Below the pieces are notes generated by a model. It saw nothing but the letters and a program-made list of their open reading frames with translations. It did not search any database and was not told the origin of the DNA. Position numbers and translations under genes: made by a program. This document shows, piece by piece, positions 5,470 to 61,244 of a DNA stretch of 64,000 nt (positions within the stretch are counted from its first letter, which is position 1; every line of letters starts with the position of its first letter). The stretch is from Branchiostoma floridae. Taxonomy: Eukaryota > Chordata > Leptocardii > Amphioxiformes > Branchiostomatidae. The stretch spans positions 4,125,720 through 4,189,719 of the forward strand of contig NC_049997.1 in assembly GCF_000003815.2 (NCBI RefSeq), in the 5' to 3' direction.

Positions 5470-5892
5470 ATTGTCAAGGGCTAACCCTGTACATGTTTGC
5501 ACACGACGGGTTATAGCGCCCCTTACGGGGCGACACACCCGTCCGGGTGAATACTGTAGATCACCATGTGGCTGATACGAGACAGAGGTTTGCCAGGCCT
5601 CCAATTTGAAGTGAATCACCAAATCCCGACAGAAGGATTTGCACCAACGCACACCGCACCATCGCACGTGTGGGGGTTCTTTAACATGCATGGGGTATGG
5701 CTCTCCCCATACACGGGACCTCCATTTAACGTCCTATCCGAGGGACGACTTATTTTTCACTTGAGTAAAGTGAGGAAAGTCGTGTAAAGTGCCTTTCCCA
5801 AGGGCACAAGACCGGCAACACGGCAGGCGGATTCGAACCGGCGACCTCTCGGTCGCGGGCCGAATACACCACCACTGTGCTACACGGCCCCA
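5470..5892 (-). mobile_element. tRNA-derived SINE with conserved central domain
   Basis: Read on the - strand, the head at 5892-5824 is tRNA-like. It has an A-box TAGCACAGTGG and a perfect B-box GGTTCGAATCC (plus-strand GGATTCGAACC at 5829-5839), but no closed acceptor stem typical of an intact tRNA gene. The body downstream, with CGGATAGGACGTTAAATGG and TTAAAGAACCCCCACACG, resembles the conserved central core shared by several deuterostome SINEs. It abuts the end of the 57-bp minisatellite. Family assignment is from memory. Confidence 0.8.
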
Positions 5893-37050: not shown

Positions 37051-40000
37051 ATGGCTGCAACGGCCGGCTCCAACGTGCAGCAGAAGATAGCGGAAGTTCT
37101 CGAGGTAAAGTACTTGCCTTTCTTACATCTTGTACCTTTTGTTTTTTAAGTCAAAGCTGTCACTGTGGCCTTGTATTAAGGGTTTTTGTCTCACAATCAG
37201 AGCATAAAAGTACAACTCAGGGTTGGACAAGTTTTCTAAAATTCACTTGTCCTCTATCAGGCAATTGCGCAAGTACACAATTGCCCGAACTAACGTTTCA
37301 CTTGTCCAAATAAATTCATTTCCATTGTTGGAATTCTTTTATTGTTGGCTCTATTTTTCCGTGTTGACCAATGCTTGATGCTATGACTGTGAAAAGTATA
37401 CCAAAATCTCTCTCATGGAAAAATCGTGCTTGCCCGATCAGCACATACACTTGCCATGGACAATCGTGCTTCTGCACTTGTCCAACCGGGTTACCCTGAC
37501 ACTGAGTTTGATTATCTCAATCACAAACGCTGCTTAGGAAATGCACCTATTATTAACACTAAACTTTTCACTAGACTAAGGCCAGGGTTCTAGCTAGTGC
37601 ATTTTAGCGTAGTGGGCCACTACGCTAAAATTTGTGACCACTACGCTAAAATAAGGGCCACTACGCTCATTTTTAACTAGTGTAGTGGTGCTTTGCTTGT
37701 TCAACAATGTCTAATCAATGTCTAAACAATGAAAAATGATGATATGCCATTCAAAACTGACTGTGATGTTAACAGAGTACCAACTTTTAACTCTACATTA
37801 TCAAAACCTCACTGTGGAGGGGCCAAGACCCCCCTTCCACACCAATCTCCTGGTTAGTCACTTCGGTACTGTACCATGCCATTCCCACTACGCTAAAATG
37901 AAATCCTGGCTAGAACCCTGAGGCATAAAGGAGTGCCTAGCTTCAGCTAGGAGTAGGAATGTTCCTCTGATATGACATTAAGTTCAAGTCTTGTGTTTAA
38001 TTAAGAGAGCCACACTTCAGGCATGTGAAAGTAACCACCACACTTATCGAAAACAGTAGGGGTCCTTCTTTGTGTGATCATGAGTGGATCAAATAATTCT
38101 GTTCAAATATGTAGCTTGTACTATTCAGTAGAAACCTGGTGTGTTACAATATATTGAGATAACTGTACATGTTTACTTGGTAATGTAATGTAAACATCTA
38201 GGTTAGGTTCATGAATTGAATTTACCAGATTCCCAAGTTAGCAAGAACTTAATCTAAATTCCTGGATCACCAATGTAAGATAAGAAATGGTTACACCAGC
38301 CAAACACACAACCATGTTTAGACAGCCATGGTGCATCTTAAGACAGATAGGAAGCTTCCTTAAGCCTTCACTGACTGGTCAAGATAGAGGTTGTGCTACT
38401 GTAAATGTGTTTACTTACACTGTGGGTTTTGTTTCATGGTATATATAGGAGGGAAAATAAGGTTTCACAACTGTATTTGAAGTTTGTGTCTAGTACAGAA
38501 AAAGTACAAGTTTTCAGACCAAGCCAGCCTGAAATCATTTTCATAATTTTGGGACATTCCAATAATATTATAAGGAATATCCTCGTGCGACTTGTCTCTG
38601 GGCCGTTTTTAACGGCTCAAATGATGAAATACTGAATCAGATGTAAAATTTATGTAGGAATACAGTGCAGCAGATGTAAACATTATACAGATTGACTTAT
38701 TCGGAGTATTTCCACTTTAAACGCTGTAATATTGCTTAGGTTGCCTTTAAACACAGTAATCAATACAGTAACTGTACTCTTACCCCCCAGGGTATGACCT
38801 TCCCAGCCTATATGAACAATGCAGACAATACAAAGATAAGGTAAGTGTTGACATATTGTGTCGTATCTCTATATCCGACACCCGCACGCACGGTTTGTGT
38901 GTTCAGCACTGGGAGTCCGCGTTTGCCACGCAAATTTGCGTAACGGCGGAATGTTTACCGACACGGCGGGTTGTTGACGTCTGCATGCTTGAGTAAACAT
39001 TAATAAGCAGGGATAAGAGGATGTGCCATTGTTTGGGGCTTGTCTCTAAATATGGACAGGTCGAACTTTGCAAATAACATATTAACATTGTCTATGTTTT
39101 GTGTGGCACTTATTTTGTGCAATCGAGAATTTATGGCAAGTTTCACTACATTTAGTAGCTTTTTTGTGCTATTATCTGGTATATAAAATACTAGTAATTA
39201 GACACTAAAAAGAAGGTTCTGTTGTTTGTTAGTTAATTATTATTATCAAGTGTGAAACGATAATTCGGTATGACATAATCCTTGAATGACATCACTGGTG
39301 GTATTTTGTAAACCAACAGACTAACAAAACATGTTAAAATTGAATGTACGTTTATTTGAAGAAACAAAAAGAGTCTCTTTATTCATTATGACAATGAAAT
39401 ACCATACCTCACAGGTTGATCACAGGCTAAGGGCATATATTTGAAGTATTTTCTTGGCTTTTATGATTGAAAATTCTAGGAAAAAATGCATATACTTTAG
39501 TCACTATCATAATGCAAAAACATACATTTCATAAAAAGGTACGAATCTTACACATATACGTGATAGGCACAAATCTCTGTGAAGCACACATAGCTTAATA
39601 GTATGTGATTTTATGCAAAACTCCAATCCATTCAATGCCTTGAACTAGAAACATCACAGGTAGAGACATTAAAAAACATGCCTTCAGTTCTCCCAATGTA
39701 ACTTGGTCGGGCCCCGGTTTGCCTTCATAAGATTCTCATTAAATCCATGCAAATACTTATAATTAAGGCTCTCCAGGGTCACGCAATCATAATCATAATC
39801 GTTATGATAATAATAATGATATCATAATCCTTAAAGTTTGTTTATCCTGCAGTACCCCAGTGCTAACAGACATTGACTCAGTGAGACAGTGGTTGGAGGA
39901 CCTACGCTGGATGACAGAGACAGAGTGTATGACAGTGTTACAGGGCAAGACTATACAACCAGAGGATGGGGAAAGTCTACCTTCTCCTGTTAGAAATACC

Positions 40001-43000
40001 AAAGGTACTGAAATCTTACTTAGTTAGTTTTCTTTTTTATGAAAAAGTTAGCCTGATATATAAAGTATTTCTGTTTGTGTGTGGTTTGTGCTTGTGTGTG
40101 TTTGTGTGTGTGTGTGTGTGCGTGCACGCGTGTGTGTTTGTGTGTGTGTGTAGCTGGAGCTGAAAATTTGCAAAACTTTGACCACATTTGAGCGGAAATA
40201 AGAAATGGACCTTATACCATGTTCACATGAGATCTCTAGAGGCGTATTGAGTCGGAATGCCGTCGGAATGAAAAGTTTCTTAATATGTTTATTTCTTGGT
40301 ATTTATAAGGAATTCAGCTAGAAATTCTTACAGCTGCAGTTCCGAATTTTTTTTCTTTGAATGAAAACTCAGTCGCGTTGCTTATATCTTTGTTATCTTT
40401 CCCCAGAACACATTAAGATGGTGAGGAAAAGGGCTCATATCATCACAGCAGAGTGTGCCAAATTATTTCAGTAAGTACTCTTAGTACAGTACTGTACAGT
40501 ACAAATGTAATTTACTGTAGATCTTGAAATTCTCATGGTTTTTGCTCTTTCAGTAGGACTTCTGCTAGAAGGAAAGTTGTGACTTCAAAGTGATTGTATA
40601 CTATATATGATATACTATACCTATAGTGAAGCTCACTAAAGAGCTAATCTGTCACTCAGGTCATGACAGAAAACAAATGCTACATGTAGGTTAAGTATTA
40701 ATCAATAAGTACTAGCTCCTTTAGCCAGTACAACAAACAGAGGGTTACAAGTAGCATTCATGTTTTATGAGCGAATAACAGCATGATTCAAACTCTAATC
40801 AGAATCACTTACATGCAGTTAAACCACTGGACTCAGAATGATGTGTTTGTGTTGGATTCTCCTGTCGAACGTTTAGACAGATGAGCAGGCAAATAGGCAT
40901 TTGCCAAGGTTGCACATGGCTAAATTTTGTAGTGAAGGAGGGGTGTGCACTTCCTTCTCCAGAATGACAGAATGTTTAGAATTACCAGACTTTTTTAGAG
41001 CACTGTTTAGTTGCAATCAAGACTAGATTTTGTATGAAAATTTAACAAAAAAATTGCCGGCATTCATTTAGAAAAACATTTTTTTTTCAACCTTAATTCA
41101 ACCTTGGTACATCTTCGGCCTAAGCCGTTTTTCAAGATGCACTTGATGCCTTATGTACATGTACACAAAATGTAGATTGCCACCCCTATTTTGTATGTCT
41201 GTCATCGTGAGTTTACCTGTGAATAGGATGTCTGGTAACGTTAGAAGCGTTTCCAGTCAAGTGTGCTCCAGGCACCGGTCAAGAGTCATCGTCCATTTCA
41301 CATGCAAATGAGCACCACAACTTGTCTGGCATTTTCTGTGACAATCAATTCTGACTGTAAGAGTTATAATCAGGGAATATTTTACAGCAGATGTATAACA
41401 TAATTTTGCCACCAGTTGTGAAAGTTACCTGGCGAAATTTTTTTTTTAACAAAGCATCAGTGTGTGAAATTCATTTTCCGAGATACATGTACATGTAGCT
41501 GCACTTGCAGGGCTCAAAATACGTTTTTCTGCATACCTGCACCGGTGCAGGTAACATTGCAAATCACCTGCACCAGACAAGTTTTACCTGTACCACTCTG
41601 AGTTTAGGAAGTATGGATGGTACTAAAATCGTTCAGGAACAATTGCTGTTTTTGCTTGAATGTATACTTTAGAGATAGTAAAAGTCATTGCAGATGATAA
41701 CAATTCATATACAGCTACATCATCATAGGAATGTATAAAACCCAGAACATGGACCAGTGCAGGTTAGGTGCAGGTAGACATCAGAAATATGCATACCTGC
41801 ACAGCTCCAATTTTACCTGCACTAACCTGCATATGCAGGTGGTATTTCGAGCCAGGGACATGAAAGACTTGTAGGATTTTACTAGCTTTTTACTAGCCGG
41901 CAAAGAAAATAATATTCATGTTATTTCTATTTTAATTTGTTTCCTTCACAGAGACCTATTCAATTAAAATTTATCTCTAGATGAGCTTAATACTGTAATT
42001 CACAATTGTCTTCAATCATTGGTATCAAGCTTTCACGGCCTGAGAAACTTGAACTTGTTCATGGAACTAATGTTCACAGTGGTGGCAGGTGTGTGTGAAA
42101 AGAGTCGGCAAATTATTTGTTATCGGTAATGATAAGTTCACGGTACAGGCATCACCGTGAAAACCATGAACATAAATTTTAAGTACAGTAACTGTTAAAA
42201 ATCAGGAAGTATTTTGCCATACTACCCCCCTCCCACACCCTTTCATTATCATGTGTACATTGTACTTTCAGGTTGATAAGTACATAAAACTCATAAATAA
42301 AAACAAATAATGACATTGTGATATCGGTAGAAAAAATCTGTAAAATGAATACATTTAGTCAATTTGGTTTTAATGCAGTTTTATTTCATTTTACACAGTA
42401 AACTGGACAAGGAGCGGTGGAAGAAAGTCCACAGCAATGCCCTGAGAATAACGTGCACGATCCGGTCCCTCCTACATGACATCAGCGCCCACAGTCCCAA
42501 CCTGGACATCGACGTGTTCCAACAACAACAGGTGGTCATGGAGGAGTGTGCACAGCTCATCAAACATGTCGAAAGGTAAGGGCATGGGTTTGGGGTAGCC
42601 TGATTAAATCTCGCTTACAGCAGCCCGCCCAACATCTGCCGGCCCACTCCATGGGGAGGGGCTGGTTACAGCCCTGGATAGCGTGAGTTTGTGTTACACA
42701 GACTAGACTTGGGGGTCAGGGTACCAGTATATTGTATACCGGAATAAACTCGTTTTTCTTGTTGAACCAGTCCAGAAAAAACAAAGCTGAAAAAGAATCA
42801 GTGGACCCAATGTTGGACTGATTCAAAAAGGAACAGATTATACCGGCAGACGTTCACGTGTTTTGGGTCTTACAGGTCCAAGAAGATAACAAGTTTTAGA
42901 GCAAAGTAGATGACAGTTGATAGTCATTTTTCCAATTGTATGCCACACCCACAGAAAACCTTGCCACACAATACAATATACAATACAATGATACAAAAAA

Positions 43001-46000
43001 GCATGCTGGACAGTGATATTTACAGGCTATTATTCAATGGCATTCAAAACCTGAGTTATTCTTAAAACATTGTTGACAGCATTTTGTAAAGCTAAAATCT
43101 ATTACCATTGTGTCTGTTGCATTCTTTTTGAATGTATGGGTTTGATTTAAAAGGCATCTGGCTACTTAAAGCACAATGTAGAGAAGAATAATTGTCTTTT
43201 ACACAAAACCAGGACTTTTCTGGGTTCTCACATTAAAGGGATGCATTCTTTTTGCCTAAAGGTTAACACTTCTATGGTTGACCTTCTATAGAAATTTGGG
43301 GAAAAGTTTAGAGAAGACATTTACATACACATTCACATTCTAGTAATACCAGCTAGTTTAGAAGTCATGCACGTAATGTCAGGCAAGTAAAAGTATGCAC
43401 TGTTTAAGTGACCTTTATGTATATCAGCAAGTACACAGGCACAAAAAGTTTGGAAACTGACAATTAATAACTATGTTTGATTATATCATTCTGTAGGTTG
43501 TATTCAATATCAAATCATCATCATCACAGCATAATGTTTGAAATGGACAATTGGTTTTGTTGTATTTTGTCAAGAATTTCACAAAAACTGTTATAGAAAA
43601 TACTAGACTGCAATTGGCTAGTGGGTAGAGTGTTGCCTTGCAGTTGGTATGTCATAAGTTTGATCCCTGGCTGAGTCATTTCAAAGACTTTAAAAATGGT
43701 ACATGCTGCTCTTTCTGATTTGCACTCAGCATTAAATTTTGAGAATTTCAAAGAGTATGGTACTTGAACACAGACACCACTGCGTGCCAGTGCTGTAGTG
43801 ATTGCACAACTGTTGTATGGCCCAAGGGCTATTAAAATAGAGATGGGCACTGCGCTGTGCACCATCTTTTGCAGGAAGGACTTATCAAAATATTCTGCTG
43901 GAGATGTTCAATTTCTTCTTCATGTCTGTTGAATGCTGTTTCACTTTGTTGTTCCAGTATTGGAGAAATCAATGGAGAGAAGCCCCAGAAGCTGCCCATG
44001 GTACACTCTCTCACGTGCCTGGGGCAGGCCTTCACACGACTCATAGACAAGGTCCTGGCACATGAAGTCAGGGTCAGTGTCAATTCAATATCATTCATCA
44101 TGAATTCAGAATAAATTTTATAAGAAGATCCAAAGCATATGAAATTGTACTGCTAAACATTGTCAGCCAATCAGAGATTCTCCTACAAAAGGTTTTCTTT
44201 AAATGAACTCATGCAGTTCTCTGATTGGCTGACAGCTGCTTAGAGTTTACACCCACATATATAATTGTTCCAAAACACTAATTGTGTTTGTTTTAGCTAT
44301 CAAGCAATCAGATCGCAGGGCTCGAAATACCACCTGCATATACAGGTTAGTGCAGGTAAAACTGGAGCTGTGCAGGTATTTCTTGTGTCTACCTGCACCA
44401 AACCAAACCTGCACTGGGTTTTATACATAAATGTCATATGATGTAGGTGTATCTGGATTGTTATTAGCTGTGTTGAATGTTGCCACCTATGAAGTACAGA
44501 AACAGAAAACAGAAAAAAATAGCAAATGGTTCCTGAACAATTTCAATATGATCCATAGTTCCTAAATTCAGTGGAGCAGGTAAACTTTGTCCGGTGCAGG
44601 TAATCTTCAATGGTACCTGCACCAGTACAGGTATGCAGAAAAAAGTATTTCGAGCCCTGGATAGTGACACTGAAAAGATCTCTTGTGCGGCGGTTAACAG
44701 CAAACTTCCATCCGTGTCACTGACAGAAGATGGATGATATCTGAAAAAAATAAAAATAAAAAAAAATCATATTCTTGTAGCATAACAGTTATGTTATTTG
44801 GCATAAGTTTTTACTGCACTTTGCTGAAGTCGGACATGTTTCTGCCTACAGACCATAGTTGAAGGCGTGGCCGACTCGCCCAGTGCCTACTGCATCAAGG
44901 CGTCAATCACCAGTCTGGTGGGCGTGGCCCAGGGAGAACCACAGATGTGCCACCTTATAGTCAAGGTACGGAACTTTCATCATGTAGAATTCATCTAGTC
45001 TTACCTCCATGAAAAAGTCGTTTTTTGGTCTCCTGGTGGCAGACCTAAGTACTGCAGCAGAGCTTTTGTTGTACAGTATATCTTTTGTCCAATACATGGT
45101 GTGTCTTGTTTCATCTCAGCTAATTATCTATAACCCTCTTCAAGTTACAGTCAAACCTGTCTATAGCGGCCACTCAAGGGACCGGACAAATGTGGCCACT
45201 ATAGACAGGTGGCCTCTGTATAGAGGTGGCAACTTGTAGATAAAATACCCAAGGGACCAACAAAAAGTGGCCACTATGGACAGGTGGCCCCTCTGTAGAG
45301 GTGGCCCCTTATACAGGTTTGACTGTATATAATTTAAAAATGTTACAGTTTTATTCTGCACAGGGCCTCACCATATTAGACAGTCATGTAGTGTTCTAAC
45401 AATGTGAAATACACTATGCCGCCATATTTTCTGTTATGTTAGATTAGTACACTGTTGTAGACTGTTGTAGATAGTTTGTAGTTATTAATAATACGTTATT
45501 TGCCATACATTGTACCTGTTACAATCATTGCGCAATAAACTTGACTTGACATGACTTGTAATGTACATGCATGTTTGTGGGCGTGGCCACTAAGCAGCTG
45601 TAGGGTAATCAGAGAATCACCAATTTTTTTAGGTTCACTCAATTTTCTGGCTTGCAGCTATTTTCTGTATCGTTAGAAAATACAATTGATATATACAATG
45701 TCTAGTCTGATTTAATCTTCTATACATCCCCCCCCACACACACACACACTATACAATATCTATTTCGTCCCATAGGAGGGTGGTGTTCGAGCCCTGTTCA
45801 CCATCTGTAGACAAGACACTGCCAACTTTGTGAAGTCTCAGGCCCTGAGAGCTGTGGCCACCTTGTGCTCTGTTCCTGAAGCCATAGCTGAGGTGGAAAA
45901 GGTATGACTGTTAGTGTAGTGCCTAATACATTCATTTATAAAGTGCCTAAAGCATGCAGTGCAATTGTAATACTATTACGTATCTTAATTTCAGCAGCTG

Positions 46001-49000
46001 CCGGTTTCTTTCATACACCCGACTTCCACTTGAAGCACTGCAAAGAACTTGGAAATAAACTGGGATGGTGATAAAAAAAAACAACTCTGGGCTCATACAA
46101 TATTTTATGGAGTGATCTCCTTCCAAAAAATTACAGGAACTTCTGTCAATGAGACTTGAGATGACAGACAGAAATTTCATGCTCGCTAGATCCCTACTAA
46201 CATTTTCTTGTAAGGCCTAGGAAAAAAAATGTTGTGTTTCCTGTTTCAGTCCTGAAAAAATTAGGGTCGGTAGGTAGGGGATATCTTTTTTTTTTTTAAT
46301 TTTTTTTAGGCTAGCCAAAAATCTAGTGAATACATATTACTGTAACAATACAGTTGAACAAAGGAAACTGAAATGCATGAGGACACTTGTCTTTCAATGT
46401 CAAACTTTGATTTTGTGCACAATGGATACATTAATCCTTCATTAGATAGGACAAGCAGACTGTTTTTACTTCAATAGGAAGCAGGCTGAACAAAAATTCT
46501 AACTGGAAGCTTTGTGACTCCTCTGCCCACCCAAAAAAAAGTCTAGGGTCGGCAGGTTTTTCTAGGGAAGGTAGGGAAACAGGAAACACAATATTTTTTT
46601 TCCTAGGTTTTCCTAATACAAGGTTTTCCGACAATGTCTCATTTGTTGCACACAGTATAGTTCAGTACATAGTAAAGTAAAGACTTAAGTATAGTCCAGA
46701 CTATACAATATAACATTCAACTTCAAGTTGGTAGAAAGGGTTTTTACAGTAACAGACTTATTGCTATTTGATTTTTCAAACATATTGTGATGTTGTCCTT
46801 CAGGTTGATGGTGTGGGGTGCCTGACGGACATCCTGTGTGACCCGCTGACCACTGAGGCGACCAGGACAGAGGTGGCCGGAGTCCTGGCACAGATCACCT
46901 CCCCCATGCTTGACCACTACAGACATGTGTCAGGATTTATAGAAAACATGGAGGACTTACTCAGGGGGCTCATAGGTAAGAATTTTTTTTGGAAACATGA
47001 TTTGCTTTATCGTCCTATGCAGGTACATCCAACAGTGAAAACCGCCTGTCTGGATGTACCCTGCTCTTTCAACCGTCACTCATAGTTCCTGTGGATATCC
47101 CCCCAAACCAGCTGTGAGCCAATCAGAGAATAGGTTTTTAGCTTTCAAAAGGGCCCATATATAAGGGTAAGCTCATCAATATTCATAAGCAGGGCGGTCA
47201 GGAACTAAGAGTGACGGTTGAGAAAGCAGGGTACATCCAGACAGGCGGCTTTGCTGTTGGATGTCCCTGCATAGGAGGATGGATTTGTTTTCACTGAATG
47301 GAAAAAGGACACACAGGCCACTTTTCCTTGTTTTTTTCTGTGGTCCTTTGGAGCAGATTTAATCAATCAATCAATCAATCAAAAATGGTTTATTAGTAAA
47401 ACAAAGTACTGGCAGCCAGGGGCTGAATTATGACTTGTTGTACATTAAAATCTCTGCTTACTTAATATAATTAACGTACACAATCAATTTCTAGCATGTG
47501 ATTGCACTTTAAAACAAATGATCTCGGAGAGTATTGCTGTTTAAGTGGATAGTTCATTTAACATGAATCAAAACATACATAGTTTACAGTTCATAAACAT
47601 TGTCATTTTTTCTCGTTGAGATTAGCCTTAGCATTGATGGTACCGGACTGTTGCGGAATCTTGTAGTGCGGAAGGTAGGTACTGTCAGTGTTTGTGAATT
47701 CCGCAGGTTACGGCCATGCGTTTAACTATAATACAGACATTCAATTTTTGTTTTGTACCCCCCTCCCCAGGTTTATGTGAAACAGCATCCTCCCCTGAGG
47801 TGTTCCTCCTGGGATCAGCAGCCATCGCTAACATCACCTTCTTAGACTCCATGGCATCAGAGTTCCTGGCCAGGTACCAGGTGGCTCGGGTCCTTATAAC
47901 CTCCTCCGTACGTCTTAAAGTCTCCTCCATCTTCATCAAGGATCAGGTAACTAACTGTTTCTCAAGACGCTTTGATTTTATTGTTGAAGTTTCATCTCTA
48001 TATCACCTTTTCTTCGTCATCTTTTTCTTTTGCTTTATGATTAGAAAAGATAGTGACACTCATGTCTAGCCCCATGCCCTGATTGTATGGAGCTTAATGC
48101 TAATAGCCTAATAGTATACTGTTTAGTTAGTAGAGTTTTTAAGATTTATCATGTATCCAATTCATTTCCTCTTTTTTGCAGTTTATAGACCATACAAAAG
48201 TCACTGTACATTTTGTTGTGTCAATATACTATTAATATTAGTTAGATGCACATGTGTAGGATCCTACCTCTATTAATGCAGGTCAGACGTTTCAACTACA
48301 GTAACTATTCAGTAGTTTTCATCAGTGACACTGAAGAGATTTTGTTGGAGACGGTTCATATATCCTAGCTGTGAATTGATAATGTAAAAAATTAAAAGTG
48401 TCATCTAGTTGAAGAACGGGTTTATCCTAAACTATGAACCCTCTCCAACACATATCTCTTCAGTGTCACTGATAAAAACTACTGGATAGTACTGTTGAAA
48501 TGTCTGACCATTTCCAAAACTATATCCAGTTGCTTGAGTTACTACTTTTTGGCGTTATTACCTGGATGTCTAACTTACAACGGAATTTGTATGTTTGTCT
48601 CCAGTTGTGTACAGTGTTAGCGAACGTGGCCATGTTAGAGCAGTGTCGGGAGGATATCATCCAGTGCAATGGACTGACAGTGTTGGTGGGCTGCCTACAC
48701 GAGAAGCCGCCCTACAACAAGCAGACAGAGCGGGTGGCCTGCGAGAGGGTCCAGCAGAAGGCGGCAATAGCTCTGGCCAGACTGTGTAAGGACGTCATTA
48801 CGGCCGGAGTGGTCAAGCAACTCAAAGGTGGGGATTTGTTTTGGAAGTCTTGTTTGTCAGCTTTGAATTTGTGACATCTGTATCTGTCTGTATCTGTATA
48901 GCCGGTATAACCGCCGTACGAGGGGCGTTCAATAAGTAATAACTCTGACCCACTTCCAGTTGTCTGATCTAGAGGAAATTTTGCATGTGTAATGATTCAT

Positions 49001-51347
49001 ATCTCTATAGTTTATGTTGCAAAAAAAATCTCTGAACTAATTGTGGTTTCTGATTTACTGGTGTTTAAACTGAGTTAGGTGTGAAATGGACCAGGTGTGA
49101 AATGGAGCCAGTTGAGTGTCGCGCAGTGATCCGGTTTTTGTATTTGAAAGGACGCACACCAAAGGAGACTTTGGATGAAATGAAAGAAACTTATGGTGAT
49201 GATGCCCCATCATATGACCTTGTAAAACGCTGGCATCCTGAATTCAAACATGGCCGGAAGTCTGTGGAAACAGCTCCCAGACCTGGTAGTTCCTCTTCTG
49301 CCATTGATGAGGCATCTGTTGGAGGACCAACCTGGGGTGTCCTACAAAAACGGTGTCCAGAGCTACATCAAACGATAGGAGAAATGCATAACTCTGGGTG
49401 GTTCCTATGAAGAGAAAGACTAATAACTGTGCCAAGTTTCATTAATCTCCTGCTATGGGAAATGAGTCAGAGTTATTACTTATTGAATGCCCCTCGTATT
49501 TCAAGACAGTGTACATGCAACTGTGGAAAAGAACAAGGCCAGTGGCACTACCATAAGACAAAAGTCTTTTAACTTTCCTTGTAAGAGATGTATTGTTTTT
49601 GCACTTATACATGCAACCATGAATTCATGATACAAAGTTTGATAGTCTCTATGATTTTATTTTGCATGACTACTGTCCAACAGAATTGTTTAAAAGAAAA
49701 TTTTTTCAGCCAATTAATTACTACCTGATATGTGAATGTTATACGAAATTTTGTGCAGTTTTCCAAAGCCTTTTACTTTATGAAAATTTAAAGTACATGT
49801 GTTAAGCAGATTTGTGTAACTATTATTTAAATGCAGTGCATGTTACATTGTGTTAGCAAGGGCCTGCTTGCAAGCTGAGGGCATTCTTTGGGTACCTATT
49901 TTCTTGTATATGACAATACTCCTCCAATATTGACAGTCCTTTATAATGGATAAAACTGCCTTAGATCCCTGTTTCTATGTGTAGTTGGCTCTGCCACAGC
50001 CTGCTTGACAAAGTGTACCACATCCAGTTTGTTCAATAGCCTATGGTGATTGTAACCATGGTATTTTGAGAGTTAAATACCCTTAGCAGTTATCAATGAC
50101 AGTACTGATTTTTCAGGTTTTCTTAATGAAGTTTTACGATTTTCTGTTGTTGCCACAGGTTTACAGAGACTAGTGGAACTATGCAGAAAGCCAAAGGAGA
50201 GAAACTACAGTGACTCAGTTCTAGTAGCCTGCCTGGTCAGTTTTCTTTGTTTCTTTAAGTATAATCTCCTTTAACTTCTAAACTGTTAATATCTTACATT
50301 GAAGTAACACTTAGCAGGCAAAGATAATTTTAGGTTAAAGTTTTTAAAACCTTAATGGCTCTTAGATTTTACTATATTATTGTAAGTAACCATACCCCCT
50401 TTATTTCTACTGCTGCAGGGGGTTCTTTTTTATTAACCTTTATAGTAGTGATATGTGTTTAACTCCCATACCCCAATTCCTCATTAGTGCTAAGTGCTAA
50501 GCAGAGAAAGCAGCATGTAACATTTTTAAAGTCTTTGGTATGACTCTGACGGGATCGAACTCACGACCTACAGAATGCAAGGCAAACACTCTACCCACTT
50601 GGCCATTGAACCTGAGTCTCTGTTGTCTGGCAACTGCCTTTTGGTGAATGCAGTTGATGCAGCCACTGGCTTGTTCAACATGTTGATGATGTTGTCATAT
50701 TTTCCAGGCCACCCTCCGTAAGCTGGCCAGTGTCTGCTGTACTAATATGTTATTATTTTCCAGGCCACCCTCCGTAAGCTGGCCAGTGTTTGCTGTACTA
50801 ATATGTTATCATTTTCCAGGCCACCCTCCGTAAGCTGGCCAGTGTCTGCTGTACTAATATGTTATTATTTTCCAGGCCACCCTCCGTAAGCTGGCCAGTG
50901 TCTGCTGTACTAATATGTTAATCATTATTTTCTAGGCCACCCTCCGTAAGCTGGCCAGTGTTTGCTGTGCTAATATGTTATCATTTTCCAGGCCACCCTC
51001 CGTAAGCTGGCCAGTGTCTGCTGTACTAATATGTTATTATTTTCCAGGCCACCCTCCGTAAGCTGGCCAGTGTTTGCTGTGCTAATATGTTATCATTTTC
51101 CAGGCCACCCTCCGTAAGCTGGCCAGTGTCTGCTGTGCTAATATGTTATCATTTTCCAGGCCACCCTCCGTAAGCTGGCCAGTGTCTGCTGTACTAATAT
51201 GTTATTATTTTCCAGGCCACCCTCCGTAAGCTGGCCAGTGTCTGTGGCGAGGATGAATTTTCTCAGGAAGATCTCATCCAACTGGTCCAACCAAGACTCA
51301 TCGACTCCTACCTCATCTGTTCTTCACTTCAGGAGAGTTTTGTATAG
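37051..51347 (+). CDS. INSC: Inscuteable spindle-orientation adaptor, complete (543 aa)
   Basis: Known role: links Par3/aPKC cortical polarity to LGN(Pins)-NuMA to orient the mitotic spindle in asymmetric division. Coding exons: 37051-37104, 38791-38840, 39853-40004, 40407-40470, 42399-42575, 43958-44072, 44852-44965, 45776-45901, 46804-46975, 47771-47946, 48605-48827, 50159-50235 and 51216-51347. All have GT/AG ends, compatible phases and total 1632 bp. The LGN-binding helix is at residues 42-65 (IDSVRQWLEDLRWMTETECM...), nearly superimposable on vertebrate VDSVQRWMEDLKLMTECECM. The armadillo-like repeat region spans about 145-535 (EVFLLGSAAIANITFLDSMA; ACERVQQKAAIALARL; QPRLIDSYLICSSLQ). 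The C-terminus is ESFV, the class I PDZ ligand kept in vertebrates. Length fits the family (about 530-580). Start: ATG 37051 (AGGATGG context). The frame stays open back to the acceptor at 36980, so a longer N-terminus is possible. The last-intron acceptor is amplified tenfold, and the introns are dense with MITEs. Confidence 0.95.
37218..37498. mobile_element. MITE with CAGGGTTGGACAAG ends in INSC intron 1
   Basis: CAGGGTTGGACAAGTTTTCT at 37218 pairs with ACTTGTCCAACCGGGTTACC + CTG ending 37498. The interior repeats CACTTGTCC / ACAATTGCCC motifs. hAT-like CAGGG termini; no ORF. Confidence 0.7.
37583..37920. mobile_element. CAGGGTTCTAGC MITE in INSC intron 1
   Basis: Termini CAGGGTTCTAGCTAGTGCAT and ATCCTGGCTAGAACCCTG are inverted. 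The interior has tandem CCACTACGCTAAAAT units and their inverse. Same family as 32947-33739. Confidence 0.8.
40075..40153. repeat. (TG)n microsatellite in INSC intron 3
   Basis: A long GT-alternating tract with TTTGTG and CACGCG interruptions (TTTGTGTGTGTGTGTGTGTG). It starts about 70 bases after the exon 3 donor. It can adopt Z-DNA and is likely length-polymorphic. Confidence 0.9.
41508..41856. mobile_element. CAGGGCTCGAAATAC MITE, copy 3 (inverted), INSC intron 4
   Basis: Left end CAGGGCTCAAAATACGTTTT; right end GGTATTTCGAGCCAGGG (last bases diverged). Interior modules ACCTGCACCGGTGCAGGTAA and GGACCAGTGCAGGTTAGGTG match the other copies. Confidence 0.8.
42717..42865. mobile_element. Dispersed repeat (GGTCCAGAAAAAC family), copy in INSC intron 5
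   Basis: GGTACCAGTATATTGTATAC, CCAGTCCAGAAAAAACAAAG, GGACCCAATGTTGGACTGAT and TATACCGGCAGACGTTCAC parallel 17885-18020. Confidence 0.55.
43607..43850 (+). mobile_element. tRNA-derived SINE (family B), copy 2, INSC intron 5
   Basis: The head TTGGCTAGTGGGTAGAGTGT with B-box-like AAGTTTGATCCCTGG and body CAAAGACTTTAAAAATGGTA / GCTGTAGTGATTGC match the copy at 14523. It ends about 100 bases before exon 6. Confidence 0.75.
44316..44659. mobile_element. CAGGGCTCGAAATAC MITE, copy 4, INSC intron 6
   Basis: Clean termini CAGGGCTCGAAATACCACCT and AAGTATTTCGAGCCCTG. Same orientation as the 12707 copy. Confidence 0.85.
45000..45090. mobile_element. Arm fragment of the 18.9-21.2-kb element
   Basis: TTACCTCCATGAAAAAGTCG, GGTCTCCTGGTGGCAGA and AAGTACTGCAGCAGAGC resemble the outer arms at 20930-21170. 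It lies just after the exon 7 donor of INSC. Confidence 0.5.
45148..45325. mobile_element. Tc1/mariner-type MITE with TA target duplication, INSC intron 7
   Basis: CAGTCAAACCTGTCTATAGC at 45148 is inverted at TTATACAGGTTTGACTG ending 45325. TA flanks both ends (45146-45147 and 45326-45327). The interior repeats GTGGCCACTATAGACAGGTG. A fragment of the same family lies at 60704-60740. Confidence 0.88.
46216..46607. mobile_element. Foldback element with ~30-bp inverted ends, INSC intron 8
   Basis: CCTAGGAAAAAAAATGTTGT + GTTTCCTGTTT at 46216 is inverted at AAACAGGAAAC + ACAATATTTTTTTTCCTAGG ending 46607. Sub-terminal TTAGGGTCGGTAGGTAGGG pairs with CTAGGGTCGGCAGG in direct orientation. The exon 9 acceptor is only about 200 bases downstream. 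A related end (AAGGAAAAAAAAGTTGTGTT) is at 9096. Confidence 0.8.
47013..47276. mobile_element. Foldback element with ~75-bp inverted arms, INSC intron 9
   Basis: TCCTATGCAGGTACATCCAA begins at 47013 and its inverse TTGGATGTCCCTGCATAGGA ends at 47276. Pairing continues inward (CCGCCTGTCTGGATGTACCC with GGGTACATCCAGACAGGCGG; TTCAACCGTCACTC with GAGTGACGGTTGA). In the pre-mRNA this forms a long stem immediately after the exon 9 donor. Confidence 0.85.
48919..49496 (+). mobile_element. Internally deleted mariner transposon with TA duplication
   Basis: Termini CGAGGGGCGTTCAATAAGTA and TACTTATTGAATGCCCCTCG are flanked by TA (48917-48918, 49497-49498), with long inverted ends (ATAACTCTGAC / GTCAGAGTTAT). 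A 109-codon ORF (49081-49410) keeps the N-terminal DNA-binding domain (VECRAVIRFLYLKGRTPKE; YDLVKRW; KSVETAPRPG). It jumps, within one frame, to a C-terminal remnant (LQKRCPELHQTI...GWFL). The DDD catalytic domain is missing, so it is a non-autonomous mariner, but it still encodes a TIR-binding-like peptide. It sits in INSC intron 11. Confidence 0.9.
50462..50615 (-). mobile_element. tRNA-derived SINE (family B), copy 3, inverted
   Basis: The inverse of the 14523 and 43607 copies: GGGATCGAACTCACGACCTA (B-box side), GCAAACACTCTACCCACTTG + GCCATTG (A-box side) and ACATTTTTAAAGTCTTTGGT (body). It lies in the last INSC intron, about 90 bases upstream of the acceptor minisatellite. Confidence 0.75.
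50697..51240 (+). repeat. 56-bp minisatellite of the INSC last-exon 3' splice site (10 copies)
   Basis: The exon-start sequence GCCACCCTCCGTAAGCTGGC occurs at 50708, 50764, 50820, 50876, 50936, 50992, 51048, 51104, 51160 and 51216. Each is preceded by TTTTCCAG (TTTTCTAG at 50936), and from the second on by TGTACTAATATG or TGTGCTAATATG. UACUAAU is close to an ideal branch site, about 18 nt before AG. Spacing is 56 except one 60. Only the 51216 copy continues into the true exon. Since 56 is not divisible by 3, upstream acceptors shift the frame, and any with two or more units downstream meets CCG-TAA. Confidence 0.97.
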
Positions 51348-53560
51348 AAGAGCACTTAGGTCTTAGCCTGGGTACCATCTGGATAATAGTTCGCTCCTAT
51401 GTTCGCTTCTGCTATCCGTCTGGAGACCTGCACATTCAAACTGTTTGGTGCTAGCGTCAGTTAATGAGAGAATTAAGGAATGGGTTCTAGAGCACTCGTT
51501 CGATGACAACAGCCCTCCCGCAAGCAGAAGGAGGGCTTGTGCAGTGTTTGAACACCGGTTTGAATGAGCGCTTGAATCCATTACACGATTTGCTCATATA
51601 TGGGGACCAATCAGCGTCCAAAATCTGGATGATTCCAGACATTAAGATGGTCAGGGTTCCCAGACAGAACAGCAGAGAAGTTGTATATAGTATATAATGA
51701 ACACCAGAGCGAACTACTTTCCGGATCGATGGTACCCAGGCTTTTAACTCTTAGTTCTCACCTCAACGTTTAGAATCCAACAGTGCCTTTGAATGTTTTT
51801 AAAAGCTTTTACCAAAATCCCATTTGGGATGCCTAGCTGTATACAAAATGTGTATGCTACATCGAGCTACAAGGTATTTTTAGAGGCTTTTTAACTACCT
51901 CACTTAACACTCAATTTGTTGCAAATGCATAGTACATGTATTATAGTAAAAAGCATTGAAAATTTGATATTTCTTTCACAAAGTCAATATTCAGAAGTAT
52001 TATTAGTCATCACAGCTTCTCAAAATCATGGTTAAGATTTTTTAATGTCAATTTTTGGATCCTGGGGTTTATGATTCATTGAATCTATTAAGTTATAAGG
52101 GTGGCATCTAAAACACTTATTCTGCTTTTGTAATTAGCTTGTTATTTGAATATTTCCCTCAGTAAAATTTTCTCGAACCAAAAACTTACAGCCTTTTAAT
52201 TTTCATTACATTATAAATTGTTTTTATATTTGTTATGTGGAATTTGAGACCAAATCACAATTGATAAAGTTATGTTGTCAACTAGAGTTCTTAAGAGAAT
52301 GATTGTACAAACCCTCCCCGTGCATAAAAACACACAATTCTATGTACTGTCAGCTCTAATTATGTTCCAAAAACCTTTTTTACACACCTGATGAACATGT
52401 ATGTCTGCTTATCATAATTATAATTATAAGTATATTTTGACACCTTCTTTACTAACTCTGATGCATTGTCAGCTACAAATTATGATATCTCAGATTAGAA
52501 ACCCATATTGTTGGTAGCTTCAATCTACTTCAAACTATATCTAATTGGTGTTGTTAAAAGATATAATATTGTCAGTATCCTTCAACATTTATAATTTGAT
52601 GACTATGGACTCCAACAAGTTGATATGCCCTGTTTTAAGTGTAGTATCTTCTTGATGATACTGTCTGCCATTCATTTGGTTATTTTAGTACTTGAGAAGT
52701 ACAGATATTTATGTATATTAAACTATAGCTGATACTTATAGTATTTTAGTAGTTTTTTAGTATATTTAGTGACAAGTGTGGTTTTAGCAGTGGAAAGACA
52801 GATTATATTTTGTATTATTTTGCTTTTTTTGTTGCTATTTTCTGTCGGCTCTTCTATGTTATACAGGTTTTGAATTATAGATCATTATTAATGTTATTTA
52901 TGCTGACAGTTCATTTTCTGTTGCTTTTCTGTAGATATTATATCAAAATTTACTTGACTTTAAGTGGTTTATCTTTTTATGTTGATATTTGTATTATCAT
53001 TTGAAATATGATAGTTTGCATACTATTATTTCCCTGAGCTTGTGTTATTATTTCTACGCTAATCTTTATATAAAGAGAGTATACAGTATCAGCATTGGTG
53101 TGCAAAGTTGCAGTCAAGCTAATATATGTCATCCTCATTCTGACTCATTTGACTGTCATTAATTGCATTTTATTCAATCTGTGGACAGATATGGAGTAAG
53201 AAATTTCTACCAAGTACCTCTTTTTTGATGTAGATGCAACAAAACAATTAAGAAATTAGTGAATGCTTGTGAATCAATGTTTCAAGTAATTGTTTAGTAA
53301 TCTAAGAGTAACCTTGGAGACTCAATCTTGTATTGTTTTGAAATTTGTAATGATTATTATTTTTGTAGCAACAATATTACAAGATTCTGTATGGCAGATC
53401 CTACATGAATTTTTGTAACTGGTTAATGCATTTTCATCTGTTTACCAAAATTAATAAATTAATATCATTCTAAGTGATGGTAGCTTAAAAGTGGAACTGT
53501 CCATATGTTCTGATGTATGAAAAACATTATAGAAATATGTAGTTATGATTAAAAAATAAA
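51348..53560 (+). other. Probable INSC 3' UTR
   Basis: AT-rich, with no coding signal. Candidate polyadenylation signals AATAAA are at 53453-53458 and 53555-53560. The latter is followed by TCTGAAAACCCGTGTGTTTG, a TG-rich downstream element. The UTR boundaries are inference. Confidence 0.45.
51366..51741. mobile_element. MITE in the INSC 3' UTR (GCCTGGGTACCATC ends)
   Basis: GCCTGGGTACCATCTGGATA at 51366 is inverted at GGATCGATGGTACCCAGGC ending 51741, with inner TAGTTCGCTC / GAGCGAACTA also pairing. It begins 18 bases after the INSC stop codon. No transposase. Confidence 0.85.
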
Positions 53561-56779: not shown

Positions 56780-58035
56780 ATTGTCCACTGGCTGGGTTGT
56801 ACGAAACGTTGGATGTGCTGTCCTTACTCGAGGACTGTCAAATGACTGGGTTGTAAAAAAGGTTGCAATTGGTGTGCTGTCCTTACTCTTGGATTTTCCA
56901 CAGGCTGGGTTGTAGAAGGGGTTGGGTGTGCTGTCCTTACTCTAGGACAGTCAATCGGCTGGGTTGTACACAACGTTGGGCGTGCTGTCCTTATTCTAGG
57001 ACTATCCACGGGCTGGATTGAACAAAACGTTCAGTGTGCTGTCCTTACTCTAGGAGTGTCCGCGGGCTGGGTTGTACAGGGCGTTGGATGCGCTGTCCTA
57101 ACTCTAGGGCTGTCCACGTGCTGGGTTGTACACAACGTTGGGTGTGCTGTCTGTTCTGTCCATGGGCTGGGTTGTACAGAACGGTGGGTTTGCTGTCCTT
57201 ACTCAAGGACTGTCCACAGACTAGATGGTACTGGGCGTTGGGTGTGTTGTCCTAACTCCAGGGCTGTCCATGTGCTGGGTTGTGCACAACGTTGGGTGTG
57301 CTGTCTGTTCTGTCCATGGGCTGGGTTGTACAGAACGGTGGATGTGCTGTCCTCACTTTAGAACTGTCAACGGACTGGGTTGTACAGAACGGTGGGTGTG
57401 CTGTCCTTACTCCAGGGCTGTCAACGGGCTGGGTTGTACAGAACGGCGGGTGTGCTGTCCTTGCTCAAAGACTGTCCACGGGCTGGGTTGTACAGGGCGT
57501 TGGATGTGCTGTCCTAACTCTAGTGCTGCCCACGTGCTGAATTGTACACAACGCGGGTGTGCTGTCTGTTCTGTCCATGGGCTGGGTTGTACAGAACGGT
57601 GGGTGTGTTGTCCTTACTCTAGGACTGTCCACGGGCTGGGTTGTACACAACGTTGGGTGTGCTGTCTTCTGTCCATGGGCTGGGTTGTACAGAACGTTGG
57701 GTTTGCTGTCCTTACACTCGGGCTATCCACTGGCTGGATTGTACAAAACGTTGGGTGTGCTGTCCTTACTCTGGGACTGTTAACTGGCTGGGTTGTATAG
57801 GGCGCTGGGTGTTCTGTCCTTACTCTAGGAATATCAACAGGCTGGGTTGTACAGGGCGTTGGGTGTGCATGTGCTGTCTGTTCTCCGTGGCTATTAATGG
57901 GCTGGGTTACAGGACGTTGGGTGTGCTGTCCGTACTATGAGGCTGTCCACAGGTAGGATTGTACAGAGCGCTGGGTGTGCTGTCCTTACTCAAGGACTGT
58001 CCATGGGCTGGGTTGTAGAAGGCATTGGGTGTGCT
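56780..58035. repeat. 54-bp minisatellite overlapping the 3' coding end of the LRR gene
   Basis: The + unit is CTGTCCACGGGCTGGGTTGT + ACAGAACGTTGGGTGTGCTG + TCCTTACTCTAGGA, 54 bases, with some units shortened to a CTGTCTGTTCTGTCCATGGG variant. There are roughly 22 units with a visible higher-order pattern (the CACGTGCTGGG ... CTGTCTGTTCTG pair recurs at about 57110, 57265 and 57530). On the - strand the unit reads STPNVLYNPARGQ-SKD. The first two and part of the third unit are coding in the LRR gene; most later units carry in-frame TAG (CTA on +). Confidence 0.92.
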
Positions 58036-59894
58036 GTGCTCCTCTGCACCAGCATGCTGTAAACCACTCCTATACAATGTCCCGGTTGCAATCTCTGTTT
58101 CTTCCTCCATATCGTATGGACCCTGGCCAACGCCTGTTGATGGATTGTCGTTTTCCGCTTCTACATTTTCAGATTCAGGCTCTTCAGTGGAATCTTCAGC
58201 TGATGGTGACGATGTGTCCTCAGGTAGGGAGACCGTTTGGTTGACAATTGTTGGTGGATTGCCACTTTCTTCTTCTTCATACTCAGGCTCTTCAGTTGCA
58301 TCTTTTGGTGACGATGTGTCCTCTGATTGTTTGACGTCGACGATTGTTGGTGGATTGCCATTTTCATTTTCTCCATCCTCATCATTTGGCTCTATATCTC
58401 CACCTGTAGTGTGTGACCGGCCCTCTGCTTGTGCGAGCGGTTGTTCAACGCTTACTGCCTGTTGATTGCTGATATTTTCCAGCGATGTTGAGCCTACCTC
58501 CTTATGGCGTCCTACAGCGTGAGGTTTTCCAGGACCGCCTGAAAAGTACAATGGGATCCCGCAGCTGTCATCTTCCTCTAGGTCCTCCCTGTAGGCCACA
58601 GCATATGGTTTGATATCTGACTCTGGCGATTGGGGTTCATCGTCGACCACTTCATACGGATGGGCATTCTCAATGTCTCCTGAGGGGTGTGAAGGGTCAA
58701 GGGACGGTTGGCTGGCTGGTGGAGAGTCCATGCCAGATGCTCGCTGTCCAGCGGAGTCGGTGTTGATCACTTCATGTGGATCAACCTCCCGGTAGGCCCC
58801 TGTTTCTTCATCAACCACTCTTGCTGGTTGGTCAGGATGAGCTAACCTTGCACCGCACCAGCGCTTGCAGATAAAGATGACGCTTACCGACGCCAATACG
58901 AAGAGGAGCGGTACGACAACAGCACCAGTTATGGCAAGGATATGGATGCTGTTGTCATCCTTGTTGATGATGGGGTTTCCCCCCAGAATAATGATACGGT
59001 CCAACTCTGTTGGATGCTGAGAGACTGTTATTTCATTTGTGCACGGCAATTTTGTAATCGTTGCCGTCTGACCAGTCTTGTTGCGAGAATTTGTGATGGT
59101 AACGTCACCATGGTTTGGATTGTCGGTGGACACGTCGTTGTGGTTGCAAATTTTGATGGCCTCTTCGTCATGTTTGTGGTTCAATTCGTCATACTTGGGG
59201 CGTGCGATGGACATGCCCTGATGCTTGGGGCTTCCGATGGACAGGTGGTTCTTTGGACCTTCGAAAGACGCCTCGTCATGTTTAACACTTGTGAAAGTCT
59301 TTGCGTCATGTTTGGGTTTTGCGATGGTTACGCCTTTTTCTTTGGGTTTTGCGATGCACACGTCATCATCTTGGGGGCTTGCGATGGCAACGTCATCACC
59401 CTGGGGGCTTGCGATTGTCACGTCGTCTTGAGTGGTGTAGCCTATACCCTGGTGTGACTTGACCATGTAGGTCCTGCACATATAATTCCTCATTGTGGTG
59501 AGGAAAGTGCCTCTTATCCTCGCAGGTGACTCACACCTCAGGAAGTGGCGATCAGTGATGTGTTTCAGGTATTGCAGGTTGCAGACGAACCACGTTAGGT
59601 TCTTGTCACATCGCAACCTGTTGCCACCCAATTCAATACTCAGACACTGGTTGTGATTCAGGTACACTACATTACTGTAGATGGTACTGATGCGATTTCT
59701 TCTTGAGTGTATAGTCTTTAAAGCTTTCAGCTTTAAGAGAGGCTCAACAGGCAAAGAAGTCAGCCGGTTGTGGGACAGCTGCAGGTTGGAGAGACAAGGC
59801 AGGCCACGAAATGCATCTCGCGATATACTTGAAATTGCATTCATGTGGAGGTACAGGGATGCTAGTACTTCAAGCCCTAGAAAAGTATCCGAAT
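57907..59894 (-). CDS. LRR single-pass transmembrane protein, terminal exon (5' exons not found)
   Basis: The acceptor AG lies just beyond 59894 (TTTAATCTTCAG|ATTCGG on -), and the frame stays open for 661 codons to TAA at 57909-57907. Counting the internal Met at 59844 as 1: LRRs at 1-60 (LPCLSNLQLSHNRLTSLP), a cysteine-flanked LRRCT-like cap (about 75-123; NRLRCDKNLTWFVC), a stalk of about ten-residue repeats (DDVTIASPQG, DDVAIASPQD, DDVCIAKPKE, KGVTIAKPKH; 140-255), a TM helix at about 302-326 (LAITGAVVVPLLFVLASVSV) and a basic stop-transfer KRW. A 320-residue acidic cytoplasmic tail follows with many Tyr motifs (HPYEVV, KPYAVAY, GPYDME, TLYRSG, AFYNPA). This suggests a cell-surface receptor or adhesion molecule. 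The signal peptide and first LRRs are upstream, possibly beyond the window. The C-terminus is built from the 54-bp minisatellite. Confidence 0.85.
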
Positions 59895-61244
59895 CTGAAG
59901 ATTAAAGAAAAATATATTTATTAATGTTTTGAACCTTTCATAGCAAACTATTTTTCTTACATATTCATTATCATCAAAGAAACAAAAATTTTGATCTATA
60001 AAAATATAATTAACTAGAAAGGCCGACATTTGCTTAAGAGCAAATACAGCATATTTCAGCCATACCCCTTCCCACGCAACATTGGACTGTTCCAAATCAC
60101 CCCTGCGCAAAAATGGAACATCCTCTTAACAGTACATTATCCCCCAAAGTGGACTGGTATTGTGAATTGACTCCAGGTAAAAACAGAGCTTGCTTCTATT
60201 TTTCAGAAAATGACAATAATCACACCTTCCATTCAGAAAATTTTCATCATGACTGAAAATTGTTGAATGACTTCATGTAATGTCATTAACAATTTTCAGT
60301 ACGATAACTAGGTGTAAGTTTAAAAAAGTATAAGCTCCTTGTGATGTGGGTACATTTATTATTGCAATGAACTTTTTTTATTCAAGTAGGGCATACAATT
60401 TAATAATTATCAAGCAGGTGCAGGTACTGTAGGAGCGTTTGTTTTCTTCAAGCTGTAAAACTGTTAAACTGTTTTACTTTGTATGCAATCAACCATCGAG
60501 CCTATTCTTATTTTAGTTTAACAACTTCCTGCCAGACCCGGAAGATACGATTGAACCTTGTTCGAGGATTTATTTTCGTCTGTCTGGTCAGTCTGTTCAT
60601 ACCCTGGCGCTGAGAGTGTTTTATTGGGCTGAAACTCTGGCAGTTTGAAGTTACTTACAATTTAAATGTTCAAAGTTTATGCCAAACAACAACAGCACTA
60701 GGAAATGTGGCCACTATAGACAGGTGGTCACTATAGAGAAAATGCTGATCTATTGACTAGGAGCAATACGTTACACATGATTTCAGTACACTGATCATTA
60801 ATCATATAAACATTGCACAGGTAAGCCAATTGTTTAGATGTACAATTAAGTTCAAATAATTCTGAAGAGAAATATTGATGAGAAAATAATCATTCTCGCC
60901 ACTGTCTAACTTATAATTACGTATCAAAACTAAACGCAGATTTTCTAACTAACGCACCTTTCGCCGACTTCATCATAGGACCGCCGGCTATCAATCAAAC
61001 ACGGCTGTTGATTAGACTTAGAGTTTCAAACAGTCATGTGCTGTGTGCCAGTTGACAGCGAACTTCATGCTACGTGATGTTTTACATTGCTTGGACCTTC
61101 TTTCCTACAGCGGTGCTTCTACAAAATATTTAGACTGTAACACTGAGTTTTATAGAATAGAATTTGACGCAGAACAGCGTTTTTTGCTGGGTATTTTTTT
61201 TGAAACATGTCCGTGGGAATATCAGCGAGGCGGCGACGTAGGGA
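59895..61244. other. No gene recognised; LRR gene intron or upstream region
   Basis: No LRR-like or other exon is visible on - upstream of the terminal exon. A fragment AATGTGGCCACTATAGACAG + GTGGTCACTATAGAGA at 60704-60740 belongs to the TA-flanked MITE family of 45148-45325. Confidence 0.5.

Follow-up and report, generated by a model that had tools for sequence, protein, structure and literature searches.

The window analysed here is a stretch of 64,000 nucleotides from Branchiostoma floridae (NC_049997.1, positions 4,125,720 to 4,189,719 of the forward strand), and its plus strand carries an inscuteable (INSC) gene whose last intron/exon junction is repeated as a minisatellite with ten tandem splice acceptors. 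Ten exons, A to J, were delimited manually using open frames and splice signals. When the nine exons B to J are joined through the tenth acceptor, the product of 434 residues matches the Pfam family Insc_C (PF19427) with 450.3 bits (E 7.5e-135), residues 1-434 being aligned to profile positions 15 to 453 of 453, and the exon at 39853-40004 matches the LGN-binding domain INSC_LBD (PF16748) with 52.9 bits; both scores exceed the Pfam cut-off of 27. A second match of the B to J product, ARM_ARMC5, lies under its own cut-off. Of the three sequences that the product matched among solved structures, one is a chain with the name INSCUTEABLE (5a7d, E 3.3e-07) and the other two are designed repeat proteins; the last exon by itself had no match up to E 10. 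Judged by these two predicted domains, Insc_C and the LGN-binding domain, the gene is inscuteable. Exons A and B are out of phase with each other, so that an exon is missing or mis-set between them; the modelled introns measure 658-2394 nt, and the longest of them possibly conceals an exon. The exon model is as follows.

39853..40004, plus strand: LGN-binding domain exon (Pfam INSC_LBD), by Pfam match
42399-42575, 43958-44066, 44852-44965, 45776-45901, plus strand: first four of seven more inscuteable exons, by Insc_C match
46804-46975, 47771-47946, 48605-48827, plus strand: last three of these seven exons, by Insc_C match
50159..50235, plus strand: penultimate inscuteable exon (LQRLVELCRKPKERNYSDSVLVACL)
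50236..51215, plus strand: last intron, donor CTG/GTCAGT, phase 0; 980 nt via acceptor 10 and 472 nt via acceptor 1
51216..51347, plus strand: terminal coding exon of inscuteable, ATLRKLASVCGEDEF...LQESFV including the stop codon

The repeated acceptor of the last INSC intron

A preliminary description of this DNA had placed ten tandem acceptors at the last intron of INSC, and this stands: Tandem Repeats Finder reports an array at 50698-51244 (period 56, 9.7 copies, 94% matches, score 981), and the protein read through the last copy matches Insc_C to the profile end. The AG dinucleotides of the ten acceptors end at 50707, 50763, 50819, 50875, 50935, 50991, 51047, 51103, 51159, and 51215, and GGCCACCCTCCGTAAGC is present in ten copies that start at these positions (50707 to 51215); eight of the spacings are 56 bp and one is 60 bp. 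Each unit is made of 29 exon bases and 27 intron-type bases, the latter comprising a branch-like heptamer, a short T-rich tract, and the AG.

50698..51244, plus strand: minisatellite array across the last intron/exon junction, made of nine full units followed by 29 bp of exon from the native copy; ten acceptors
50706..50707, plus strand: AG of acceptor 1; upstream flank diverged, TGTTGAT replacing TACTAAT
50718..50723, plus strand: weak donor-like GTAAGC, 10 nt past acceptor 1; the same letters occur in all units and in the native exon
50905..50935, plus strand: intronic part of unit 4, with a 4-bp insertion and TTTTCTAG replacing TTTTCCAG at acceptor 5
51189..51215, plus strand: intronic part of unit 9, ending in the tenth acceptor; the A of TACTAAT lies 19 nt before the AG end; native by frame and family profile

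The copies are very alike. Units 1, 3, 6, and 9 are identical, as are units 5 and 7, and zero to three base differences are found across the eight 56-bp units; the 29 exonic bases match the native exon start apart from a single C/T site in units 2, 5, and 7. Unit 4, of 60 bp, carries the insertion and reads TTTTCTAG where other units read TTTTCCAG, and the intron side of acceptor 1 has diverged so far that it is only loosely alignable to the other copies. A blastn scan of the window (E up to 0.01) found no further copy of the 56-bp unit. Given its length and identity the array is not a chance product, and we hold with high confidence that it is real.

Two other repeats lie close to the array. 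The last INSC intron contains at 50445-50608 a dispersed repeat, tRNA-SINE-like (SINE, short interspersed nuclear element) by eye only, with copies at 14690-14531 (85%) and 43735-43611 (82%). About 15 bases past the INSC stop codon, an inverted repeat resembling a miniature inverted-repeat transposable element occupies 51363-51741, with ends GCCTGGGTACCATC at 51366 and, on the other strand, at 51728.

Reading frames and signals of the ten acceptors

The ten acceptors differ clearly in what they encode. Reading all tails in phase 0 from the penultimate exon, acceptor 10 alone gives the native tail of 43 codons ending in ESFV, in agreement with the preliminary description. Its further statement that earlier acceptors run into CCG-TAA two units on applies to six of the nine, since acceptors 1, 2, 5, 6, 7, and 8 give 41-codon tails closing at this point, and fails for acceptors 3 (33 codons), 4 (19 codons), and 9; the tail of acceptor 9, which begins at 51160 and had been described as free of stops for dozens of codons, runs for 68 codons. 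None of the latter three ends in ESFV either, and all nine early tails consist of ten shared residues followed by translated repeat and intron sequence. The stop codons of such mRNAs fall in the last exon if no further splicing takes place, and nonsense-mediated decay (NMD) dependent on exon junctions is then not expected, against the earlier idea that the early acceptors produce its targets. We take ESFV to be a ligand of the Par3 PDZ domain, so that early-acceptor isoforms, if made, would be INSC without Par3 contact and probably without NMD. For human Insc, the conserved C-terminal tail is reported as the prominent determinant of Par3 PDZ domain binding (PMC5844954).

The local splice signals hardly separate the ten acceptors. 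The intron end and exon start read TTTTCCAG/GCCACC at nine of the ten, with TTTTCTAG at acceptor 5, and the pyrimidine share across the ten is 65-71%. The branch sites proposed in the preliminary description are present before acceptors 2-10, as TACTAAT before 2, 3, 4, 5, 7, and 10 and as TGCTAAT before 6, 8, and 9, whereas acceptor 1 has TGTTGAT; the branch A lies 19 nt from the AG end in acceptors 2-10, except for 23 nt in acceptor 5. The stretch free of AG is 31 nt per acceptor (35 nt at acceptor 5 and 43 nt at acceptor 1). Use of the last AG had been thought to contradict first-AG scanning. There is no such paradox, because scanning starts from the chosen branch point and each acceptor has a branch match and an AG-free stretch of its own. 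Separations of 3' sites beyond 12-20 nt are reported to go, typically, with distinct branch points and with a choice made as early as initial recognition (PMC9225289).

What differs lies downstream. A complete terminal exon follows acceptor 10 alone, whereas the nine others precede a 29-nt scrap of exon, which contains the weak donor-like GTAAGC, and more intron. Eight of nine purine-rich enhancer-like words occur in the true exon and none of the nine in the unit, a comparison of 132 nt with 56 nt that uses overlapping words and has no shuffled control. A distal enhancer within the true exon would be compatible with this sequence. Since their frames distinguish the use of each one, ten closely matching acceptors with matched branch sites make an unusually clean natural test of 3' site choice at a terminal exon under nearly equal local strength.

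Two other modes of splicing were considered and rejected. Recursive splicing does not fit: no donor is regenerated when the exon is joined to an acceptor, and each use of the internal GTAAGC would leave 10 nt in place. Tandem acceptors of the NAGNAG type lie a few nt apart, share one branch point, and are selected at the second step; those described here are 56-60 nt apart and have their own heptamers.

Kinship with lancelet mirages and probable choice of the last acceptor

Minisatellite-like repeats of intron-exon boundaries have been described in amphioxus under the name of mirages (PMC3087553), and the parallel that the preliminary description drew is borne out by structure, as the INSC unit spans an exon-intron boundary and its 56 bp (60 bp in one case) fall inside the reported range of 10-160 bp. 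The INSC array is thus a new example of a kind of splice-junction minisatellite already described in lancelet genes. The suggestion that an acceptor version would be a novelty does not survive, since the acceptor-type mirage BflGb6 is already in print (PMC3087553). Like the INSC array, BflGb6 is reported to consist of tandem copies of an intron 3' end and the start of the next exon, and its units, 81-100% identical with concerted evolution inside the cluster, resemble the INSC units in their similarity (PMC3087553). The two differ in size: BflGb6 units measure 150-160 bp and number 6 and 3 in two haplotypes, compared with 56 bp and ten acceptors in INSC (PMC3087553). BflGb6 is documented by haplotypes and by reverse transcription PCR (RT-PCR), whereas the INSC array is known here from one sequence alone. 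An excluded cluster boundary with turnover is reported for BflGb6 (PMC3087553); in INSC the inner units are near-identical and the intron side of acceptor 1 has diverged. RT-PCR of mirages pointed to regular splicing, and cryptic use was considered possible (PMC3087553).

The Adh3 mirages of B. floridae and B. lanceolatum likewise are minisatellites across an exon-intron boundary (PMC3087553, PMC3902484). Their units are given as 10-72 bp and their splicing as undisturbed (Canestro et al. 2002, via PMC3087553 and PMC3902484), and somatic length instability has been reported for them, while the INSC array comes from a single sequence. Repeats of this kind are also described for PGBD5 and troponin C (PMC3902484); in lancelet PGBD5 they measure 60 and 108 bp, are imperfect, and are reported in 2 and 3 copies in one assembly vs. 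7 and 6 in another (PMC3902484). Splicing is described as unaffected by the mirages of the Adh, globin, and troponin C genes (PMC3087553, PMC3902484). A related process is intron gain by tandem duplication, in which copied splice signals could create new introns (Rogers model via PMC3087553; PMC2395259; PMC2812944), with reported instances of repeat expansion in Cryptococcus (PMC2395259) and of human tandem repeats at exon-intron boundaries (PMC2812944). The INSC array differs in that the penultimate exon joined to acceptor 10 already yields a family protein that covers the Insc_C profile to its last position, and therefore a new intron is not needed. Among the literature matches listed, including those for amphioxus and inscuteable together, no account of an inscuteable gene with a repeated junction appears. 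INSC joins the mirage genes, as probably does the gene related to dimeric dihydrodiol dehydrogenase (DHDH) described below.

We consider it probable that the array is a minisatellite of the mirage type and that acceptor 10 is used predominantly. A 56-bp segment, the last 27 bases of the intron and the first 29 of the terminal exon, would have been duplicated and subsequently multiplied and homogenised, presumably by unequal exchange or replication slippage, and all copies except the last would now be intronic. Terminal-exon definition most likely favours acceptor 10 for most transcripts, because it is the only one that precedes a complete terminal exon, and the fit of the resulting protein to the last position of Insc_C (453/453) argues for this. 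Use of upstream acceptors at a low level would yield INSC lacking its last 33 residues, ESFV included, from mRNAs that should not be NMD targets. The copy number is probably close to neutral, and the array is probably tolerated rather than functional.

A number of points weigh against this explanation. Eight of the nine decoys carry the native TTTTCCAG/GCCACC, and eight of the nine have equal or equivalent branch sites. We infer the use of acceptor 10 from the reading frame and the family profile, and use of the upstream acceptors could be substantial, leakage being plausible. In human internal exons with competing 3' sites of similar strength the upstream one is reported to be preferred, strongly with short introns and significantly less with long ones, and classical work favoured the intron-proximal site (PMC9225289); a result on internal exons with an overall upstream preference does not alone predict the tenth site. 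No AATAAA or ATTAAA that would mark the 3' end expected to help define the terminal exon occurs within 1.3 kb past the stop codon, the first being an ATTAAA at 52717. The excluded boundary of BflGb6 is reported as an outer unit, whereas in INSC the outer native copy is identical over 29 bases. Finally, in local RNA folding of 50236-52200 under three settings, the AG of acceptor 10 is predicted to be unpaired at 0.26, 0.13, and 0.07, within the 0.03-0.44 of the other nine.

RNA structure as a selector of the acceptor was accordingly rejected, the AG of acceptor 10 being predicted no more accessible than the others. In the same foldings the exon sequence behind acceptor 10 is predicted to be marginally more open than that behind any other acceptor (0.52, 0.52, and 0.51; at most 0.50 elsewhere), and under one setting its branch region is level with that of acceptor 1 as the most open. 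A 708-nt stretch folded better than all 20 shuffles (z -2.25, 0/20 as good), which is little informative since shuffling destroys the repeats, and neither one unit (z 0.57) nor the region of acceptor 10 (z -0.45) folded better than its shuffles.

The array might instead be a functional switch: how many acceptor copies there are would determine which fraction of INSC carries the Par3-binding tail and which lacks it, and this number would be under regulation or selection. All nine early acceptors lose ESFV, and with stops in the last exon their mRNAs should escape NMD; the prominence of the conserved tail in human Insc-Par3 PDZ binding (PMC5844954) would give such a loss a consequence. Mirages elsewhere are nevertheless reported as harmless to splicing (PMC3087553, PMC3902484), the tested junctions of the window show no enrichment of repeats (see below), and the nine tails have ten residues in common and otherwise consist of translated repeat and intron, so that we judge a switch improbable. 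A slightly smaller chance is given to a length-variable splicing rheostat, in which more decoys would yield more INSC without ESFV and thereby tune spindle-polarity coupling between individuals or cells.

It is comparably doubtful that the copies were multiplied or collapsed in assembly and that the true copy number is different. Short near-identical repeats are prone to miscounting, and the counts for lancelet PGBD5 differ between two assemblies (2 vs. 7 and 3 vs. 6; PMC3902484), yet the PGBD5 authors state that resequencing argues strongly against assembly error (PMC3902484). In INSC, private variants mark unit 4 (the insertion and CTAG) as well as unit 8. No exact self-match within the array (offsets 40-499) exceeds 111 bp, a length reached at offset 168, so that longer reads can place most copies. 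The least credible explanation is that the unit serves as a nursery of introns, a near-complete intron of 46 nt between 10-nt exons whose spliced-in microexons are, or become, new coding sequence. GTAAGC, TACTAAT or TGCTAAT, and TTTTCCAG occur per unit, three successive 10-nt microexons would keep the frame and add ATLRHPPPPS, and a mirage-based model of intron gain has been published (PMC3087553). Against this, the frame is lost with a single microexon or with two, an intron of 46 nt would be far shorter than the other INSC introns (658-2394 nt), and the donor-like GTAAGC has an approximate score of 2.9, below all nine native donors (3.1-11.4), the lowest of which is close.

A DHDH-like gene and other repeats of the window

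The tolerated minisatellite that we favour for INSC has a possible counterpart near the start of the window, where three joined exon pieces align to dimeric dihydrodiol dehydrogenase (2o48, E 2.2e-28). In this DHDH-like gene a donor-type array at 759-965 repeats an exon end and its donor four times, 55 bp apart, with donor-like sites at 786, 841, 896, and 951, the fourth of which is altered (CTCAAAGTGGGT). The next acceptor and exon start are present in three copies at 1146-1552, the extra ones at 1172 and 1291; the last copy, from which the protein reads on, shows AA where the acceptor AG would stand, and use of an in-frame AG at 1506 would lose eight residues. With a donor array and acceptor copies in the same window, the two sides of the junction can be compared.

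Repeats are not enriched at the splice junctions tested. For 19 INSC and three DHDH-like junctions, a second ungapped copy within 1 kb was found at 2 of 22 at 80% identity or more (244 of 3000 random points) and at 3 of 22 at 75% (285 of 3000), in a small test that covered these two genes of the window, whose random points include long arrays, and whose two positive genes are those that drew attention. This is as expected if arrays land on junctions by chance in repeat-rich DNA.

Further repeats lie elsewhere. About 38 copies of a 57-bp unit at 3249-5390 leave one open frame per strand over hundreds of codons, and the variants among 35 units (16, 13, and 29 by codon position) show a mild excess at the third position. 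At 5818-5889 on the minus strand there is a weak Rfam tRNA match of 30.4 bits (gathering threshold 29) with no ARAGORN call. A 54-bp array of about 24 copies at 56782-58037 overlaps the end of a 664-codon open frame on the minus strand (57907-59901), which by eye resembles a leucine-rich-repeat protein.

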